A stretch of 10,233 nt of DNA from an uncultured Ruminococcus sp. (lineage in GTDB: Bacteria; Bacillota; Clostridia; Oscillospirales; Acutalibacteraceae), in NCBI GenBank assembly GCA_902803125.1, contig CADCOZ010000034.1:1-10233 (forward strand), in the 5' to 3' direction. Shown here in pieces: positions 1 through 10,160 of the stretch (its first letter is position 1; every line of letters starts with the position of its first letter). The notes beneath the pieces were generated by a model. The model was not told the origin of the DNA. It saw only the letters and a list, made by a program, of their open reading frames with translations, and ran no database searches. A program made the translations under genes and the position numbers.

Positions 1-85
1 CCCCCTGGACCCCCGTTGGGGGAACCCCTTTTCTGGCGAAAAAAGGGGTTCCCCCAAACCCCCTCCCTAAATTCGCTGACTTGAC
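1..85 (-). repeat. GC-rich hairpin repeat, copy A (cut by window edge)
   Basis: Read on the minus strand this follows whiA. It begins with AGTCAGCGAATTT (68-80), continues into a G-rich run, and forms a perfect 15-bp stem (18-32 with 41-55) around the 8-base loop 33-40, which reads TTCGCCAG on the minus strand. Bases 1-16 are the start of a second CCAGGGGG-type hairpin that runs off the window. The same order is seen at 3141-3229 and partly at 10099-10159. The stem sequence differs from those copies but stays paired. It could also act as a weak terminator after whiA, but there is no clean U tract after the stem. Confidence 0.85.
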
Positions 86-1999: not shown

Positions 2000-2911
2000 T
2001 TATTTTCTGCCTACAAATTTGACCTCACAACATAGGTTGATATGCTTCTTTTCGCTCACAACCTGCCGGATATGCTCTATCAGGTGCAAAACATCTTCTG
2101 CGGTGGCACCGTTATCATTGACAATAAAGCCGGCGTGTTTCGGACTGACCTGTGCTCCGCCGCAGCGATAACCCTTCAATCCGCATTCTTCAATCAGTGC
2201 CGCCGCAAAAGCTCCTTCCGGCCGCTTAAAGACACTGCCGGCACTCGGATGGTTCAGCGGCTGTTTTAACTTGCGGCGTTCCATCAGCTCGTTCATTTTT
2301 TCCGCAATAGCGTTCTGCTCTTTCGGAGTCAGGCAAAAGGCGGCACTCAGAATGATATCCTCTGTATCCGTGAACCGGCTGTGACGGTAGGAAAATTGCA
2401 GTTCGTCTGCCCGACACCGCTTGATTTGACCGTCCTTATCCATATAGTCTACGGCCACTGTCACCTGTTTTATTTCGCCGTTATAGGCTCCGGCGTTCAT
2501 ATAGACCGCACCGCCAACGGAACCGGGAATGCCCCAAGCAAATTCCAGTCCGCTCAGCGACATTTCTTTGGCAAACATACACAGCTTGGCCAGTGTACAG
2601 CCCGCTCCCGCTCGGATAACATTTTCTTCCGTGAGGGAAACCTCGCAAAATTCACCGCCCAGCGTAATGACCAGTCCTTCAATGCCCTGATCCGATACCA
2701 ACAGGTTGGAGCCTCGCCCCAGAATAAAATACGGTACGCCGTATTCTCTGCACAGTGCTGTCACCGCCCGCAGGGACGGCACATCCTTCACTTCACATAA
2801 TGCATCGGCACAGCCCCCGATACGGAAGCTGGTATGGTGCTTCATCGGTACATTAAAAGCCAAGGTGACATTCTCTTTTTGGAGTTTTTCTATCAATTGA
2901 TTGTCTATCAT
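2000..2911 (-). CDS. murB: UDP-N-acetylenolpyruvoylglucosamine reductase
   Basis: 303 residues, full length. MurB is a cytoplasmic FAD enzyme that uses NADPH to reduce enolpyruvyl-UDP-GlcNAc to UDP-MurNAc, the second committed step of peptidoglycan precursor synthesis. Visible signatures: FAD-domain TSFRIGGCADAL (27-38), ILGRGSNLLVSD (63-74) and WGIPGSVGGAVYMNAGAY (126-143); substrate residues in SYRHSRF (R176); and the C-terminal domain with SAGSVFKRPEG, where S226 fits the catalytic serine, and CCEVKF, where E296 fits the catalytic glutamate. The pattern resembles the shorter type II enzymes of Gram-positives. It opens a compact murB-rapZ-whiA cluster. The ribosome site is only moderate (AGGGGTAG), and the upstream region holds a repeat block, so the promoter is unclear. 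Confidence 0.97.
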   Translation of the reverse strand: MIDNQLIEKLQKENVTLAFNVPMKHHTSFRIGGCADALCEVKDVPSLRAVTALCREYGVPYFILGRGSNLLVSDQGIEGLVITLGGEFCEVSLTEENVIRAGAGCTLAKLCMFAKEMSLSGLEFAWGIPGSVGGAVYMNAGAYNGEIKQVTVAVDYMDKDGQIKRCRADELQFSYRHSRFTDTEDIILSAAFCLTPKEQNAIAEKMNELMERRKLKQPLNHPSAGSVFKRPEGAFAAALIEECGLKGYRCGGAQVSPKHAGFIVNDNGATAEDVLHLIEHIRQVVSEKKHINLCCEVKFVGRK

Positions 2912-2995
2912 AAACTACCCCTATCTTTGAATTGTGATTATGAATTGTTGTTTAACGTGCATTCGATGATAAATGCAGTCGTACTCCCCCTGTCA

Positions 2996-3040
2996 GCGGA
3001 AATAGTGAATAATGAATAGTGAATAACGAATAATGAATAA
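2996..3040 (+). repeat. five-unit 7-mer array B
   Basis: GCGGAAATAG (2996-3005) is followed by exactly five 7-base units: TGAATAA, TGAATAG, TGAATAA, CGAATAA, TGAATAA (3006-3040). The flank, the unit count and the CGAATAA variant in fourth place all match the array at 10036-10080. The following bases, TGTATGAG, resemble TGTGTGAG after array A. It lies between murB and hprK and is the entry module of the longer repeat that runs to 3284. Confidence 0.88.
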
Positions 3041-3160
3041 TGTATGAGCAGGCAAGTCGTTCAAGAATCGGTGAGGTAAATGATAAAGCGACGAAAGAAT
3101 ACAATCGCTTTGCTTGTCAAGTTCTTAAAAGACCTCAACACAGCGAATTTTGAAAGGGGG
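3040..3160 (+). repeat. spacer segment shared with 4652-4749
   Basis: From 3060 this segment aligns with 4652-4749 at about 80% identity by hand, with one in-frame 3-base gap, ending in AACACAGCGA and an A/T then G-rich run. It also holds a short open frame: ATG 3040 to TGA 3151-3153, 37 codons, with no ribosome site I trust because the 7-mer array is immediately upstream. The peptide core SRIGE...EYNRFACQ...QHSEF is partly kept in the other copy. It may be a fossil of a gene end carried by the repeat, or noncoding repeat DNA. Confidence 0.6.
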
Positions 3161-3284
3161 TTTGGGGGAAAACTTTTTTTCGCCAGAAAAAGTTTTCCCC
3201 CAACGGGGGTCCAGGGGGAGCCCCCCTGGTGGGGTCCAGGGGCAACGCCCCTGGTGGGAGGTTTGGAGGGCAAAGCCCTCCAAC
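3155..3284 (+). repeat. four-hairpin cassette, copy B
   Basis: Four consecutive perfect or near-perfect hairpins. H1 is a 15-bp stem, 3164-3178 with 3187-3201, loop TTCGCCAG. H2 pairs CCAGGGGG (3211-3218) with CCCCCTGG (3222-3229). H3 pairs CCAGGGGC (3236-3243) with GCCCCTGG (3247-3254). H4 pairs TTGGAGGGC (3263-3271) with GCCCTCCAA (3275-3283), loop AAA. The block ends 7 bases before the hprK stop codon, so on the minus strand it forms the 3' UTR of hprK and separates it from murB. H1 recurs in copies A and D, H4 at 4751-4771. Confidence 0.9.
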
Positions 3285-3290
3285 ATTCTT

Positions 3291-4253
3291 TTAGAACGGA
3301 ATGGTTTTCACGCCGCTTTCCTCTTCTTCGGGCAGCTCTAAGCCTAACAGCTGGAACAGTTCACGGGCAGCGTTATAGCCCATCTTTCGCTGACGGTTAT
3401 TCATCGCCGCAACCTCAATAATGACCGCAAGGTTTCGGCCGGGCTTGACGGGAATCGTCAGAATCGGCACCTGATTGCCCAGAATCTCTGTCATTTCGTT
3501 GCTCATGCCCATGCGGTCATAAACCTTCTTGCTGTCCCACAGCTCCAGATTGATGACCATGTCGATTTTCTCGCTCATTTTAACCGAGCCCATACCGAAC
3601 AGCCTTCTGGCGTTGATAATGCCAATGCCTCTCAGCTCAATAAAATGACGAATATTCGCCGGTGACTGTCCAATCAGCTGACGGTTGGAAACCTTGCGAA
3701 TCTCTACCGCATCGTCTGCAATCAGTCGGTGACCACGCTTGACCAGTTCGATGGCTGTTTCGCTTTTGCCGACACCGCTGTCGCCGACAATGAGCAGTCC
3801 TTCACCATAGACTTCTACCAGTACGCCGTGACGGGTCACACGGGGGGCCAGTTCGGTATTCAGCATGGAAATCAGAGAAGCCGACAGCACCGAGGTGGTT
3901 TCTGCACTGCGTAAGACAGGGATTTTATACTTTTCTGCCGCCGACATCAATTCGCCGTAGGGAATAATATTGCGTGTGACAATAATAGATGGCGGCTGAA
4001 GCGCAAACATTCGTTCAATCACATGATACCGCTGTTCCGTGCTGAAGCGGTTCAGATAGCTGTTTTCGGTATTGCCGAAGATCATCATGCGGGTATTATC
4101 GAAAAAATCAAGAAAGCCTGTCAGTTCCAGTCCCGGCCGAATAATATCGCGGGACACAATCTTGATTTTTTCCGGTTCTTCGGGCATATAGGCCACTTCC
4201 AGATCCAATTCCTTGATGATTTTGTCCAGTGTCACAGAAAATTTTGTTTCCAT
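3291..4253 (-). CDS. hprK: HPr kinase/phosphorylase
   Basis: 320 residues from ATG 4253. HprK phosphorylates HPr on Ser46 using ATP or pyrophosphate and removes the phosphate, linking glycolytic state to catabolite repression through CcpA. The C-terminal kinase domain shows RHGVLVEVYG with the conserved His142, the Walker A loop GDSGVGKS (157-164), ADDAVEI with Asp180/181, and the family signature ELRGIGIINARRLFG (206-220). The N-terminal domain (about 1-130) is also normal. An in-frame TTG at 4271 overlaps the ribosome site GGAGGT (4264-4269) and is unlikely to be the start. It has its own promoter candidate (4384-4412). It has the same orientation as murB, but the 379-base gap full of hairpins suggests partial or complete uncoupling. 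Confidence 0.97.
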   Translation of the reverse strand: METKFSVTLDKIIKELDLEVAYMPEEPEKIKIVSRDIIRPGLELTGFLDFFDNTRMMIFGNTENSYLNRFSTEQRYHVIERMFALQPPSIIVTRNIIPYGELMSAAEKYKIPVLRSAETTSVLSASLISMLNTELAPRVTRHGVLVEVYGEGLLIVGDSGVGKSETAIELVKRGHRLIADDAVEIRKVSNRQLIGQSPANIRHFIELRGIGIINARRLFGMGSVKMSEKIDMVINLELWDSKKVYDRMGMSNEMTEILGNQVPILTIPVKPGRNLAVIIEVAAMNNRQRKMGYNAARELFQLLGLELPEEEESGVKTIPF

Positions 4254-4651: not shown

Positions 4652-4772
4652 TTCGAGAATTGGTGAGGCAAAAGCTAAAGTGACAGAATACAACAGTTTT
4701 GCTCGCCAAGCACTTGAAAGACTACAACACAGCGATTTTTGGAAAGGGGTTTGGAGGGTAAAGCCCTCCAAC
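4652..4772 (+). repeat. diverged repeat, copy C (spacer plus last hairpin)
   Basis: Aligns with 3060-3160 at about 80% by hand, then passes directly from GGAAAGGGGTT into the last hairpin TTGGAGGG (4751-4758) / CCCTCCAA (4764-4771) with loop AAA and a T-G closing pair. The 7-mer array and hairpins H1-H3 are absent, so this looks like an internally deleted relative of copy B. A frame from GTG 4635 to TGA 4785 stays open through the segment (50 codons) and stops 16 bases before the glycosyltransferase; I see no ribosome site for it. Confidence 0.75.
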
Positions 4773-4803
4773 ATTACGAAATGCTGATGGGTTGGTGATG
4801 ATA

Positions 4804-6073: not shown

Positions 6074-7213
6074 ATGAAGGCATTATCATTGGCGTTTATA
6101 AAAGTCTATCAAAAAGAAGAACAGGTACAGTGTTTTGCGCCGGGTCGGGTGAATCTGATAGGAGAGCATATTGACTATAACGGCGGGTATGTTCTGCCTT
6201 ATGCCATTCCTTTGGGGGTATCCTGTGCGGCCAGCCGCCGGAATGACCGTATGATCCAGCTGTATTCCTGTCAATATCCCGCTGACGGCATCGTTACCTA
6301 CCACCTTGACGATCTTACCCTGAAAGGCAGCTGGGCGGACTATCCGGTCAGTGTCATAAAGGTTCTGCTGTCCTTGGGCTATGCAGTCGATGAAGGGGTT
6401 CAGCTTATGTTTGACAGCAGTCTGCCTGTAGGGGCGGGTCTGTCCTCTTCAGCCGCTATAGAGGTCGCAGTGCTGTCTGCACTCAAGGAGTTGTTCTCCC
6501 TTTCCATCACCAACAAGCAGGCCGCTTTGATTTGTCAATGGGCAGAAAACCGGTTTATGGGCGTGAACAGCGGTATTATGGATCCCTTCGTCAGCGTGTT
6601 GGGACAAAAAAACAGTGCCGTCCTGTTGCATACCGATACCCTTGATTATCGGTATATCCCGCTCGGTGATGTCGCTGTGGTCATTGTCAACAGCGGCGTG
6701 AAACACTCCCTCGCCGCTTCGGCTTATAATCAGCGGCGGCAGGAATGTATGCAGGCCGCCAAAGACCTTGGCGTTTCTTCCTTGTGTTCCCTCACGCCGG
6801 AAGCCTTTGAACAAAAAAAGCATTTGATTACCAATCCCGTTAGCCTGAAACGGGCTTATCATGCCGTCTATGAAAATGACCGCACCATTCGTGCCGCCAA
6901 AGCACTTGAACAGCAGGATTGGCTGTCTTTCGGACAATTGATGACCGCTTCTCATATTTCTTTGCGGGATGCTTTTGAAGTCAGCTGTGAAGAACTCGAT
7001 TTCTTAGCGGAACAAGCCCTTCATTGGCCGGGGGTTTATGGGGCCAGAATGACAGGCGGCGGCTTTGGCGGCTGTACGGTCAACTTGATGGCTCCCTCTG
7101 CGGCAGAATCCTTCTCGGCCGCTCTTGGGCAATGGTATGAACAGCGGTTCGGCTTCCGGCCGGCTGTTTATATCTGTGCCGCAGGACACACGGGAATCAA
7201 TTTTGTGCCGTAA
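6074..7213 (+). CDS. galK: galactokinase
   Basis: 379 residues, close to the usual 380-395. GalK phosphorylates alpha-D-galactose with ATP to galactose-1-phosphate, the entry to the Leloir pathway. All three GHMP-kinase motifs are present: the galactokinase signature FAPGRVNLIGEHIDYNGG (21-38), the phosphate-binding PVGAGLSSSAA (about 118-128) and the C-terminal MTGGGFGGCTV (about 326-336). Asp170 in SGIMDPF fits the catalytic aspartate, but the next residue is Pro where many homologues have Gln. ATG 6074 is chosen because AAAGGA lies about nine bases upstream and MKALSLAF fits the family; ATG 6068, two codons earlier, sits too close to that site. galT and galE are not in this window. It may be co-transcribed with the glycosyltransferase through the 6014 hairpin. 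Confidence 0.95.
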   Translation: MKALSLAFIKVYQKEEQVQCFAPGRVNLIGEHIDYNGGYVLPYAIPLGVSCAASRRNDRMIQLYSCQYPADGIVTYHLDDLTLKGSWADYPVSVIKVLLSLGYAVDEGVQLMFDSSLPVGAGLSSSAAIEVAVLSALKELFSLSITNKQAALICQWAENRFMGVNSGIMDPFVSVLGQKNSAVLLHTDTLDYRYIPLGDVAVVIVNSGVKHSLAASAYNQRRQECMQAAKDLGVSSLCSLTPEAFEQKKHLITNPVSLKRAYHAVYENDRTIRAAKALEQQDWLSFGQLMTASHISLRDAFEVSCEELDFLAEQALHWPGVYGARMTGGGFGGCTVNLMAPSAAESFSAALGQWYEQRFGFRPAVYICAAGHTGINFVP

Positions 7214-7384
7214 TTTCTTGGGGGGCTTGCTTGTTGGCTCGATTCGGTGCTTTGACCTGCCAAAACGCTGTCTTAACAGTCGCTTTACGCAAAACGATAA
7301 ACCAAGTTTTAGAAAATTGATTGCCGTACGCAGGCCGGTATGCTTGCATGATCCATTGATTCTGAACAAAACCGCTGAGGAACG
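7214..7384. other. gene-free stretch after galK
   Basis: I see no gene, repeat or clear promoter here. It is the 3' untranslated region of galK leading to the terminator at 7385. A TTGACC word at 7252 has no convincing -10 partner. Confidence 0.5.
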
Positions 7385-7688: not shown

Positions 7689-7701
7689 CCGCAGGAAAAA
7701 A

Positions 7702-7750
7702 TTATTCATTTTTCAGTCTTCAGTTTTCAGTATTCATTATTTCCGCATAC
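7702..7750 (+). repeat. degenerate five-unit 7-mer array before the recombinase
   Basis: Five 7-base units in exact phase: TTATTCA, TTTTTCA, GTCTTCA, GTTTTCA, GTATTCA (7702-7736), followed by TTATTTCCGC (7737-7746). On the minus strand this is GCGGAAATAA followed by five TGAAnAn-type units, the same flank-plus-five layout as the arrays at 156, 2996 and 10036 but with more substitutions. Confidence 0.75.
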
Positions 7751-7779
7751 GATGTGTCAGGAGGGATGGCCATGAAACA
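7732..7779 (+). repeat. inverted leader repeat, left copy
   Basis: 48 bases that match 10003-10050 in inverted orientation at 41 of 48 positions by my hand count. It includes ATTTCCGCATA, ATGTGTCAGGAGGGAT (with the ribosome site AGGAGGG at 7759-7765) and CATGAA with the recombinase start codon. Outside the start codon region the two genes do not resemble each other. Confidence 0.88.
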
Positions 7780-9322
7780 AAAAGCGGCGGTGTATTGCCG
7801 CCTGTCGGAAGAGGACCGCAACAAAAAGAATGCACAGGAGGATTCCGGCAGTATCACCAACCAAAAACTCATGCTGACCGCCTATGCCGATGCACAGGGC
7901 TGGGAGGTCTATGATATTTATGCGGATGATGACTATGCCGGCTCCGACCGCAGCCGCCCCGCCTTTCAACGGATGCTTTCCGATGCACAGAGGGGACGGT
8001 TCAATATCGTGCTGTGCAAGTCGCAGTCCCGCTTTACCCGTGAATTGGAAATGGTGGAAAAGTATATTCACGGGCTGTTCCCCGAATGGGGCATTCGCTT
8101 TGTCAGCGTGGTTGACCATGTGGATACGGCGGTGGCCGGCAGTAAAAAAGCACGGCAAATCAACGGCTTGCTCAACGAGTGGTATTTGGAGGATATGTCG
8201 GAAAGCATCAAAGCGGCCTTGCATACCCGTATGCGGGCAGGTTATTTTATCGGTTCCTTTGCTCCTTACGGGTATCAAAAAGACCCCGAACAAAAAGGCC
8301 ATCTATTGATAGATGAGGAGGCCGCCGCTGTGGTGCGGGAGATATTTCAGCTCTATAACAGCGGTATGGGTCGTGCGGCGATTGCCCGCTATTTGAACCG
8401 GCAGGGCATACCTTCTCCGGACACCTATGGCCGTTTGAAGGGACGGAAAAAGAAAAGCACAGGCAAAAGTCCGAATCCCTGCTGGCGGTATGAAACGGTG
8501 AGTCATATTCTGACCAACGAGGTATATCTCGGCCACCTGATACAGGGACGCACCCATAACCCTACCTACAAAAGCCGTCACAGCGTACCCTCAGACCCCG
8601 AAGCATGGGTTCGCACGGAGAATACCCACGAACCAATCATTGACCGTGCCGTATGGGACACGACCCGCTGTTTATGGAACACCCGTGCCAAGCCCTGTTA
8701 CACGGGTGAACGGAACAAGTATGCCGGAATATTGGTTTGTGCCAACTGCGGTTACCACATGGGGATATCCTATAACCGTCACAAACGGTTCTACCGCTGT
8801 ATACAGGCCAAAAACGGTCGGGAGCATTGTCAGGGGAGCTGTATCTTTGAATCCACGCTGGATAAGGCGGTGGCACAGGAAATCAAGAACCTGCGGTCAA
8901 TCTATCTGGACGAGGGTCTATTATCGGACAGTCAGCTTCTGTATGATGACACGACACTTCAAATCAAAGCGTTGACCGCACAGCTGCGGCGGCTGGAGGA
9001 AGAACACCGCAAACTGCTGTTTACTTTGAAGAGCTTGTACATGGATAAGGTGCAGGGTGTCGTCACCGAAGAACAGTTTATGGACTTGTCTTTGTCTTTG
9101 TCACAGGAACAGTCTGAAAACGAAGCCAAAGCCGATTATTTGCGGTCAGTCATAGCGGTCAAGAAACAGAACCGTCTGAACGATGAGCAAAAACGGCAGA
9201 GGATAGAAGCTATCTGTTCTTTTGAGGAGATTGACAACCTGTTTGTGCGTTCGTTCATCGAGCGGATAGAGGTAGGCGGGTCGAAACAGAACCGAGTGAT
9301 TCATATTTACTGGAAATTTTAA
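7772..9322 (+). CDS. large serine recombinase (resolvase/invertase family)
   Basis: 516 residues. The N-terminal resolvase domain starts KAAVYCRLSEED with the catalytic serine at S12 and Arg10, continuing with SITNQ, KSQSRFTRE and FVSVVDHVDT. A Recombinase domain follows (PYGYQ at about 170, the GRAAIARYLNRQGIPSP helix region, ILTNEVYLGHLIQG). The zinc ribbon has C323-x2-C326, C343 and C353/C357. The C-terminal part (about 390-490) is rich in charged heptads and likely coiled coil. Such enzymes integrate or excise elements by a two-base-overlap serine mechanism at att sites, often needing a directionality factor to excise. Start: AGGAGGG is six bases before ATG 7772; GTG 7754 is upstream of that site and rejected. 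No phage or conjugation genes accompany it here. All visible catalytic motifs are intact. Confidence 0.95.
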   Translation: MKQKAAVYCRLSEEDRNKKNAQEDSGSITNQKLMLTAYADAQGWEVYDIYADDDYAGSDRSRPAFQRMLSDAQRGRFNIVLCKSQSRFTRELEMVEKYIHGLFPEWGIRFVSVVDHVDTAVAGSKKARQINGLLNEWYLEDMSESIKAALHTRMRAGYFIGSFAPYGYQKDPEQKGHLLIDEEAAAVVREIFQLYNSGMGRAAIARYLNRQGIPSPDTYGRLKGRKKKSTGKSPNPCWRYETVSHILTNEVYLGHLIQGRTHNPTYKSRHSVPSDPEAWVRTENTHEPIIDRAVWDTTRCLWNTRAKPCYTGERNKYAGILVCANCGYHMGISYNRHKRFYRCIQAKNGREHCQGSCIFESTLDKAVAQEIKNLRSIYLDEGLLSDSQLLYDDTTLQIKALTAQLRRLEEEHRKLLFTLKSLYMDKVQGVVTEEQFMDLSLSLSQEQSENEAKADYLRSVIAVKKQNRLNDEQKRQRIEAICSFEEIDNLFVRSFIERIEVGGSKQNRVIHIYWKF

Positions 9323-9848: not shown

Positions 9849-10010
9849 TTATTTTTTGGGTTTTTCCTGCTGACGGTCTTGTTTTTGTGTGAGGGGAGGC
9901 TTGGCCAATAAAGCCTCCCGCACCATAGAAGTGACAATTTGGTTAAACCTTCTTATTCTTTCGGATTCCTCTGCGGCAACATAATGCGACACAACAATAA
10001 CCTGATTCAT
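9849..10010 (-). CDS. small basic protein of unknown function
   Basis: 53 residues starting MNQVIVVSHYVAAEESERIR. AGGAGGG (10017-10023) is six bases before ATG 10010, an excellent ribosome site identical in layout to that of the recombinase. The first half (RIRRFNQIVTSMVREALLA) could form amphipathic helices; the last 13 residues are almost all Gln, Lys, Arg, Asp and Glu (TQKQDRQQEKPKK). I see no membrane segment or known domain. The 48-base leader is shared with the recombinase in inverted orientation, and the two genes converge. That pairing suggests a recombinase accessory role, for example a directionality factor, but no motif proves it. The strong ribosome site argues for a real gene despite its size. 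Confidence 0.65.
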   Translation of the reverse strand: MNQVIVVSHYVAAEESERIRRFNQIVTSMVREALLAKPPLTQKQDRQQEKPKK

Positions 10011-10050
10011 GCTTATCCCTCCTGACACATGATATGCGGAAATAGTGAAT
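10003..10050 (-). repeat. inverted leader repeat, right copy
   Basis: Inverted partner of 7732-7779, 41 of 48 positions alike by hand. Differences fall between the conserved blocks (CG versus TC before ATGTGTC; GGC versus AAG just before the start codon). Together the two copies bracket a 2.3-kb segment. Confidence 0.88.
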
Positions 10051-10080
10051 AATGAATAATGAATAACGAATAATGAATAA
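10036..10080 (+). repeat. five-unit 7-mer array D
   Basis: GCGGAAATAG (10036-10045) followed by TGAATAA, TGAATAA, TGAATAA, CGAATAA, TGAATAA (10046-10080). It differs from the array at 2996-3040 at a single position. It lies upstream of the small minus-strand gene, as the degenerate array lies upstream of the recombinase. Confidence 0.88.
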
Positions 10081-10089
10081 TATCGAAAT

Positions 10090-10160
10090 ACCAAAAGTCA
10101 GCGAATTTCGGGAAGGGGTTTGGGGAAACACCTTTTTTCGCCAGAAAAGGGGTTTCCCCA
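10090..10160 (+). repeat. hairpin repeat, copy D
   Basis: ACCAAAAGTCAGCGAATTTC (from 10090) leads into GGAAGGGGTTT and hairpin H1: 10122-10136 with 10145-10159, 15 positions with one A-G mismatch, loop TTCGCCAG. The CCAGGGG-type hairpins of copy B are absent; after 10160 the sequence passes to A-rich DNA (10161-10233) in which I see no feature. Confidence 0.85.

Follow-up and report, generated by a model that had tools for sequence, protein, structure and literature searches.

The window, by which we mean the whole stretch of 10,233 nucleotides that was analysed, is contig C34 of a draft genome (G000) of 1.91 Mb in 410 contigs that is 74% complete. On its minus strand lie whiA, rapZ, murB and hprK, and it further holds genes for a family-4 glycosyltransferase, a galactokinase and a large serine recombinase. 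Among the 80 HPr kinase relatives kept from a total of 276, 59 were 79-93% identical to the window protein, all of them from metagenome genomes and many from genomes labelled RUG or rumen; the hairpin-bearing genus belongs to the Ruminococcaceae/Oscillospiraceae and is represented here by metagenome genomes, of which many are of rumen origin. Between hprK and murB the window has a gap of 379 bp that contains a hairpin-bearing repeat; in 19 of the 20 relatives compared, the corresponding gap is 19-311 bp (one relative yielded no answer). The hairpins, repeat modules and one possible element of the window are the following:

18-55, minus strand: hairpin copy; its right module, a GC-hairpin type (R2), is truncated at the contig end
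59-77, minus strand: leader AGCGAATTTAGGGAGGGGG of hairpin 18-55
155-200, opposite strand: related AATGAATA array, 87% complementary to 10036-10081
2996-3041, plus strand: left module type A, a AATGAATA-like array, 98% identical to 10036-10081
3093-3168, plus strand: left module type B; second copy at 4682-4757, 80% identical
3142-3160, plus strand: leader AGCGAATTTTGAAAGGGGG of hairpin 3164-3201
3164-3201, plus strand: hairpin copy with a perfect 15-bp stem and loop TTCGCCAG
3202-3287, plus strand: right module R2, a chain of GC-rich hairpins ending CCAACATT
7189-7328, no strand assigned: possible hairpin-less element of 140 bp, ends matching CACGGAAATCAATTTTG with 1 and 3 mismatches
10100-10118, plus strand: leader AGCGAATTTCGGGAAGGGG of hairpin 10122-10159
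10122-10159, plus strand: hairpin copy with one A-G mismatch

Re-inspection of the sequence bore out the preliminary description, which had reported three hairpins at these places with the loop TTCGCCAG and 15-position stems, down to the letters of the stems and the single A-G mismatch of the copy at 10122-10159. Folded as RNA, the three gave energies of -20.3 to -29.8 kcal/mol (z -3.5 to -5.0), and for each hairpin none of 200 shuffles reached the fold energy of the native sequence. The Rfam 15 families at gathering score had no match in the window, no T/U-tract was found on either side of the hairpin, and the terminator calls in 2900-3400 fall on two other stems. Throughout G000 the loop motif TTTTCGCCAGAAAA had 82+78 matches (160) at no more than one mismatch, compared with 1+5 for the reversed pattern, so that the recurrence of the hairpin is not due to chance. 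When copies were gathered by loop together with paired arms, as had been recommended, from the window and 80 further contigs with listed places (C278 to C298, eight contigs, being left out as whole contigs), 83 satisfied the stem filter (8 or more of 12 positions paired), and copies below it were dropped; both arms are complete in 81 of the 83, with 34 distinct arm pairs. No more than 3 of 146 hairpin copies lie within a called gene, genes being called by coding score and plain open reading frames set aside because they are polluted by reading frames inside repeats. Several G000 copies stand about 100 bp or less from contig starts (e.g. C9, C20, C59, C103, C140); assembly seems to break at the repeats, so that the actual number of hairpin copies may be higher.

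Inverted ends of the CACGGAAATCAATTTTG type were not found around any of the three window copies, two of which lie near contig ends. A search for paired ends with a 10-nt core at no more than one mismatch, reaching 700 bp to the left and 300 bp to the right, gave one pair in the 83 G000 copies, which is not at a window copy, and a right end within 300 bp was found in only 9 of the 83. The three window copies are derived mosaic repeats rather than intact elements, and most of the fetched G000 copies are likewise mosaics without recognisable ISAs1 ends, in which left and right modules have been largely recombined around the hairpin: type A was paired with R1, R2 and R3 in 6, 11 and 12 copies, type C in 5, 4 and 1, and nested modules in 3, 7 and 5, and type B occurred solely with R2 (9). 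The hairpin may be a recombination or template-switch point in these mosaics. Arrays of AATGAATA/AATAGTGA (2996-3041, 10036-10081 and 155-200) recur beside hairpins, and at least two GAATA within 120 nt upstream were counted in 31 of the 83 G000 copies. The type-B repeat at 4682-4775 shares its left module and its terminal GC hairpin with 3093-3287 but lacks the TTCGCCAG hairpin; it is either an ancestral form or a deletion. The 79-bp inverted repeats at 7701-7779 and 10003-10081, 82% complementary, contain AATGAATA arrays and enclose about 2.3 kb of DNA that carries the serine recombinase gene (about 7766-9322); another gene, a short one, was called on the minus strand at 9849-10010 and starts next to the repeat at 10003-10081. 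A second element (GTGTCCGGTGGACACC, CCGACCGAG..GGCGAGAC) was repeatedly seen at the foot of the hairpin, inside one arm or in place of the hairpin in four species (L059, L068 and L077 in G000; L178 and L181 in G013; L264 in G007; L316, L336, L349, L350 and L354 in G037), and behaves as if it targeted the hairpin structure. The possible element at 7189-7328 overlaps the end of galK, its flanks CGCAGGACA and CGCAGGCCG agree at 7 of 9 positions, and its element-like ends may be a chance match.

The preliminary description took paired stem changes around a fixed loop as a sign of selection on, or a copying process that preserves, the folded form. We compared stems in an alignment (A1) of 46 rows with 45 distinct stems from four species, from which nested-insert arms, register-shifted arms and contig cuts had been left out and identical arms merged (45 left), after which one row was exchanged for the identical window copy and window 18-55 was added. 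Changes on both sides occur at 7 of the 15 pairs, a number reached by none of 500 shuffles; 50 cells are changed on both sides, compared with 18.2 in shuffles and at most 10 when the partners are slid by 1-3 columns, and 93.6% of cells are paired. The covariation score was 0.227, compared with 0.110 for shuffled rows and at most 0.107 for slid partners; relatedness survives in the shuffles and is removed by the slid-partner control. The weakest measure was the number of further pair types, 15 compared with 12.3, which was equalled in 9 of 500 shuffles. The common stem forms, GGGGGAAAACTTTTT and GGGGGAACCCCTTTT in G000, GGGGAAAACCTTTTT in G012 and GGGGGAAACCATTTT in G055, each with its matching arm, differ from one another by several paired changes. 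Paired change beyond chance therefore stands; however, inserted G012 copies mostly decay one-sidedly. Compared with their consensus, 50 G012 stems (limit of 6 differences, exceeded by none; outermost pair omitted; copies one T short padded) showed 4 compensated pairs, in 3 copies, where 0.23 were expected, and 36 uncompensated substitutions. One-sided change, which had been set down in advance as the sign against the proposal, was in this way found in part of the material, in these G012 substitutions and in the 7 G000 copies that carry the one-mismatch (A-G) form. From both observations, the fold seems to be kept in the self-copying lineage and not in each insert, that is, maintained in propagating source elements and decaying after insertion.

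Paired changes might also arise from copying itself, by hairpin-templated correction of one arm from the other or by template switching, in which case selection for the fold need not be invoked. That compensated pairs turn up even in single G012 copies, well above the expected number, would fit such a process, and the recombination of G000 modules around the hairpin would suit template switching in particular. Efficient correction should, however, leave one-sided changes rare, yet 36 of them remain in the G012 stems and the one-mismatch form recurs in G000, and between species the loops change while the stem stays. On balance we regard copying without selection for the fold as rather doubtful.

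A universally fixed loop acting as a recognition site, the other part of the original proposal, is not supported, since the same kind of stem carries different loops in other species. The copies had first been collected by the loop, so that its invariance was partly built into that set; when the leader was used for collection, the exact loop was present in 10 of the 14 G012 copies that could be read among 15 loci (our own reading). The leader TTTWGGAARGGGGTYYGGGG is present in 32 of the 64 genus genomes, and among 30 loci inspected from the leader search, again by our own reading, 26 have paired arms with varied loops, 3 have no hairpin and 1 is cut; the alternative loops include CTCGCCAG, CCGCCGG and GTTTTCAAAC. 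TTTTTCGCCAGAAAA was found in 4 of the 64 genus genomes, with 123 matches in G000, 81 in G012, 9 in G055 and 8 in G013 and none in the other 60, and among 200 family genomes two besides G000 had one match each, neither of which passes the stem filter. Three pairs of loci (L435/L437, L436/L462 and L447/L461) hold leader-bearing hairpins without recognised ends and with apparently the same surroundings in each pair; some leader-bearing hairpins may, given these similar-looking surroundings, be old and inherited by descent.

In relatives, and in one compact G000 copy (contig C298, locus L326), the hairpin module, ordered as leader AGCGAATTTNGGRAARGGGG, stem, loop and stem, lies inside elements of about 110-400 bp with 17-bp inverted ends CACGGAAATCAATTTTG. 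Alignment of 52 G012 copies gave an element of about 195 bp with these ends, and L326 is a 111-bp element with the TTCGCCAG hairpin and a target duplication matching at 8 of 9 positions. Among 74 non-identical elements with paired ends, 9-bp target duplications match at 9/9 in 21 and at 8/9 in 8, compared with 0.27 and 0.15 (about 0.4 together) under a null of shuffled flanks, and the match falls below 8/9 in the other 45. At no more than 2 mismatches the end motif occurs in 62 of the 64 genus genomes; matches per genome range from 0 to 128 and number at least 10 in 24 genomes, the reversed control giving 0-1 each way. Short length, TIRs common to an autonomous insertion sequence and target-site duplication, which together characterise MITEs, are thus all present in the elements of relatives and in L326. 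Of 79 TIR-paired elements, those flanked by 100 bp or more to the left and right had their flanks compared with all loci collected up to that point, and a clean empty site was not found; the sole spanning match was an older MITE common to G037 and G050. In other species, elements with CACGGAAATCAATTTTG ends carry the hairpin with other loops or no hairpin. Seven TTCGCCAG hairpins of G055 (L168, L172, L176, L179, L182, L186 and L190) lie, as seen by eye, in elements with the ends TATAGCA...TGCTATA, which make these seven copies candidates for an IS630/mariner-like type with a TA target. G055 also carries CACGGAAATC-ended elements with a different loop (L311), to which the TATAGCA ends are unrelated. 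The unrelated ends of the G055 elements suggest that the hairpin core is a module common to different transposon types.

The ends of the MITEs nearly match those of an autonomous insertion sequence of the ISAs1 family, about 1.2 kb long. A profile search with PF01609 gave matches in 7 of 10 genomes and led to three loci: L367, of 1193 bp, has both ends, encodes a transposase of 371 aa that matches PF01609 and PF13808, and lacks a target duplication; L374 is a partial copy with a perfect end beside its start, matching the ISAs1 model NF033564 at 2e-65; and L364 begins at a contig end. ISAs1 transposase was detected in 20 of the 64 genus genomes at E of 0.001 or less, 16 of them over the cut-off; the search did not detect it in G000, G012, G013 or G055, the four genomes that bear TTCGCCAG, whose assemblies are 74-94% complete. 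The closest plasmid relative, out of 810 plasmid records with a match, is on pRUMAL01 of the cultured Ruminococcus albus 7 (71.5% identical), where the element has identical 20-bp ends and a perfect 9-bp duplication, GTAAATGTA. Of the 17 end letters, the outer 16 are common to the MITEs, one end of L367 and the R. albus element. The MITE-bearing genomes examined are mostly fragmented assemblies, where repeats collapse, and R. albus gave one element, on the plasmid. Other candidates were considered and set aside. An IS256-type transposase is present in just 1 of 10 genomes; Y1 transposase (PF01797) was not found in the incomplete assemblies of G000, G012 and G013, and of its two matches in G055 one is interrupted by a stop and the other falls short of the cut-off; and the stretches between paired ends on G012 C204 and G050 C4, considered as autonomous elements, hold no transposase and proved to be separate MITE ends around host DNA.

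These findings bear on two other views of the hairpin. The first takes it as an ordinary host RNA element, a bidirectional terminator or a stabiliser of mRNA 3' ends that is merely repeated, and would account for the strong fold and for the position mostly outside genes. It is distinctly unlikely, since there is neither a U-tract on either side nor a terminator call on the hairpin, relatives carry the hairpin in elements with inverted ends and target duplications, and the copy number is patchy, high in two genomes, low in two and nil in 60. On the second view the hairpin would be a palindrome like those of REP/BIME, mobilised by a Y1 transposase of the REP-associated kind. Inverted ends and 9-bp duplications, however, suit a DDE element, which makes this highly improbable, even though the scattered palindromes, arranged in mosaics and with stems that vary in a complementary way, resemble the GTAG/CGTC REPs, described in the sections of PMC3733652 drawn on here as palindromic units with such variation that are arranged in dimers and groups.

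A further property of the elements is their distance from promoters, the promoters being predictions in which a -35/-10 pair was scored against the generally known consensus hexamers. Reading outward from 56 right ends in G012, the best pair begins 17-19 nt away in 41 and exactly 18 nt away in 31, and the fullest 6-nt window holds 42 of the 56 ends; in 100 shuffles the fullest window averaged 11 ends and never exceeded 15. For 241 distinct ends from all groups, a set that overlaps the 56 G012 ends, we counted an end as hairpin-side if a stem-arm motif lay within 60 nt of it and pooled the loci of several genomes as 'other'; the -35 box stands at 17-19 nt in 62 of 83 hairpin-side ends (34 of 41 in G012) and in 51 of the 158 remaining ends, the summed shuffle means being about 5 and 9. 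The hairpin is thus not required for targeting, as ends without its arm are also found at this distance. Orientation is uneven: in 41 complete leader-bearing elements the -35 box is at 17-19 bp at 28 right ends, beyond the hairpin, compared with 6 left ends. Of the 35 G012 copies flanked by called genes to the left and right, 28 have a right-hand gene whose reading direction points away from the hairpin. In an ungapped profile of the right flank, TTG at +18..20 reaches 1.11, 1.25 and 0.84 bits and a TATAAT-like signal begins at +41, whereas the first 18 positions hold no more than 0.15 bits each; the left, opposite flank holds no more than 0.22. Since those 18 positions vary among copies and often contain the duplication, the right flank is not one copied sequence. 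The R. albus 7 element has TTGACA at +18 and TATACT after 17 nt, L364 and L367 have TTGACA at +18 with weak -10 boxes, and ends fall at exactly 18 in 4 of 9 in G083, which belongs to another genus, 1 of 2 in G159 and 0 of 1 in G131, as raw counts. A promoter at 18 was not found at four distant ISAs1 elements (Aeromonas, Azospirillum, E. coli and Vibrio), nor was a fixed spacing found at the G000 R2 and R3 module ends (42 and 8 ends) or at the ends of the seven G055 IS630-like copies.

From the fixed spacing we infer that insertion is aimed at promoters. The same pattern could come from selection after insertion, if the element end were a site for a regulator or for the transposase that is effective at one distance and insertions elsewhere were lost. 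The element end, at about -55 to -71 from the start site, would place the TIR where class I activators bind, and a few ends near 28 and 38-40 nt, roughly helical steps away, would be in keeping with such a role. Those classes are small, however, and neutral insertions elsewhere should persist under selection, yet the great majority of G012 hairpin-side ends are at 17-19 nt; the 1.2-kb R. albus plasmid element, which has its own transposase, is also at exactly 18. Selection is therefore an unlikely source of the spacing.

Our preferred reading as a whole, to which we give a probability of about 0.6, is that the hairpin is a stem-loop module of MITEs, that an ISAs1 transposase moves these MITEs and chooses promoters as their targets, and that the hairpin travels as a folded, insulating passenger. 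The ISAs1 transposase would mobilise the MITEs in trans, and, on the simplest reading, it or its complex would recognise a promoter held by RNA polymerase, a target suggested by the contrast between the 18 bp beside the insertion, which are almost motif-free, and the two promoter hexamers, which are not. The cut would fall about 54 to 45 bp upstream of the start site, and one end would more often face the promoter. Conservation of the hairpin, its presence in unrelated elements and its place upstream of promoters suggest that its role is most likely that of a folded RNA or DNA insulator and not of an intrinsic terminator. As a passenger it might work as folded RNA or single-stranded DNA, and would probably insulate or end read-through transcripts, in which case insertion before a promoter would be tolerated; an insulating role would also explain why the same module is found in the G055 elements with unrelated ends. 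A more general proposal, which we put forward at about even odds, is that an ISAs1 clade of gut and rumen Ruminococcaceae finds its targets through promoter-bound RNA polymerase or sigma, with biased orientation and about 54 bp upstream of transcription starts, and that an exchangeable, structure-conserved hairpin cassette allows its MITEs to be tolerated and to seed many promoters per genome.

If the spacing does reflect targeting, these elements would represent a bacterial DDE transposon that reads the transcription machinery and not a DNA motif, the link between transposition and RNA polymerase would become directly testable, and MITEs at a constant position before many promoters of a rumen lineage would amount to a natural experiment on promoter evolution. 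Why transposons retain folded passengers could well be studied on this hairpin, given its conservation by paired changes and its occurrence in elements whose ends are unrelated. Promoter targeting by ISAs1 or its MITEs was not found among the matches listed in a search of titles and abstract openings in the open-licence PMC literature. Insertion sequences have been described as often located in promoter regions within 100 bp of genes (PMC9208149, in the part drawn on here), a general statement that is background and not the same as fixed spacing.

Among known systems, the closest are the ISAs1-family insertion sequences (NF033564) and MITEs derived from them, with which our elements have in common the transposase family, the size of about 1.2 kb, inverted ends and direct target duplications, of 9 bp here and 10 bp in three of the four distant ISAs1 elements examined. 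They differ in that the ends are CACGGAAATC here and CAGGG/CACGG in those four, and the fixed distance before promoters is found in none of the four. ERIC and Correia elements are short intergenic stem-loop MITEs with a conserved fold and high copy number. Our elements resemble them in being short and intergenic, with a conserved fold and many copies, but have other ends and another sequence, and the stem-loop here, unlike theirs, is a module of elements with unrelated ends. REP/BIME stems measure 5-13 bp in the sections of PMC3733652 drawn on here, compared with 15 bp in our hairpin. Again unlike REP/BIME, the copy-rich genomes have no detected Y1 transposase and the hairpin sits in DDE-type elements in relatives. 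Some eukaryotic transposons, Ty3 among them, insert at a constant position beside RNA polymerase promoters. Our elements differ from these in having a bacterial DDE transposase and sigma-70-type promoters, and we claim no relationship; the likeness, if the targeting reading is right, is that insertion is tied to a promoter and not to a sequence motif.
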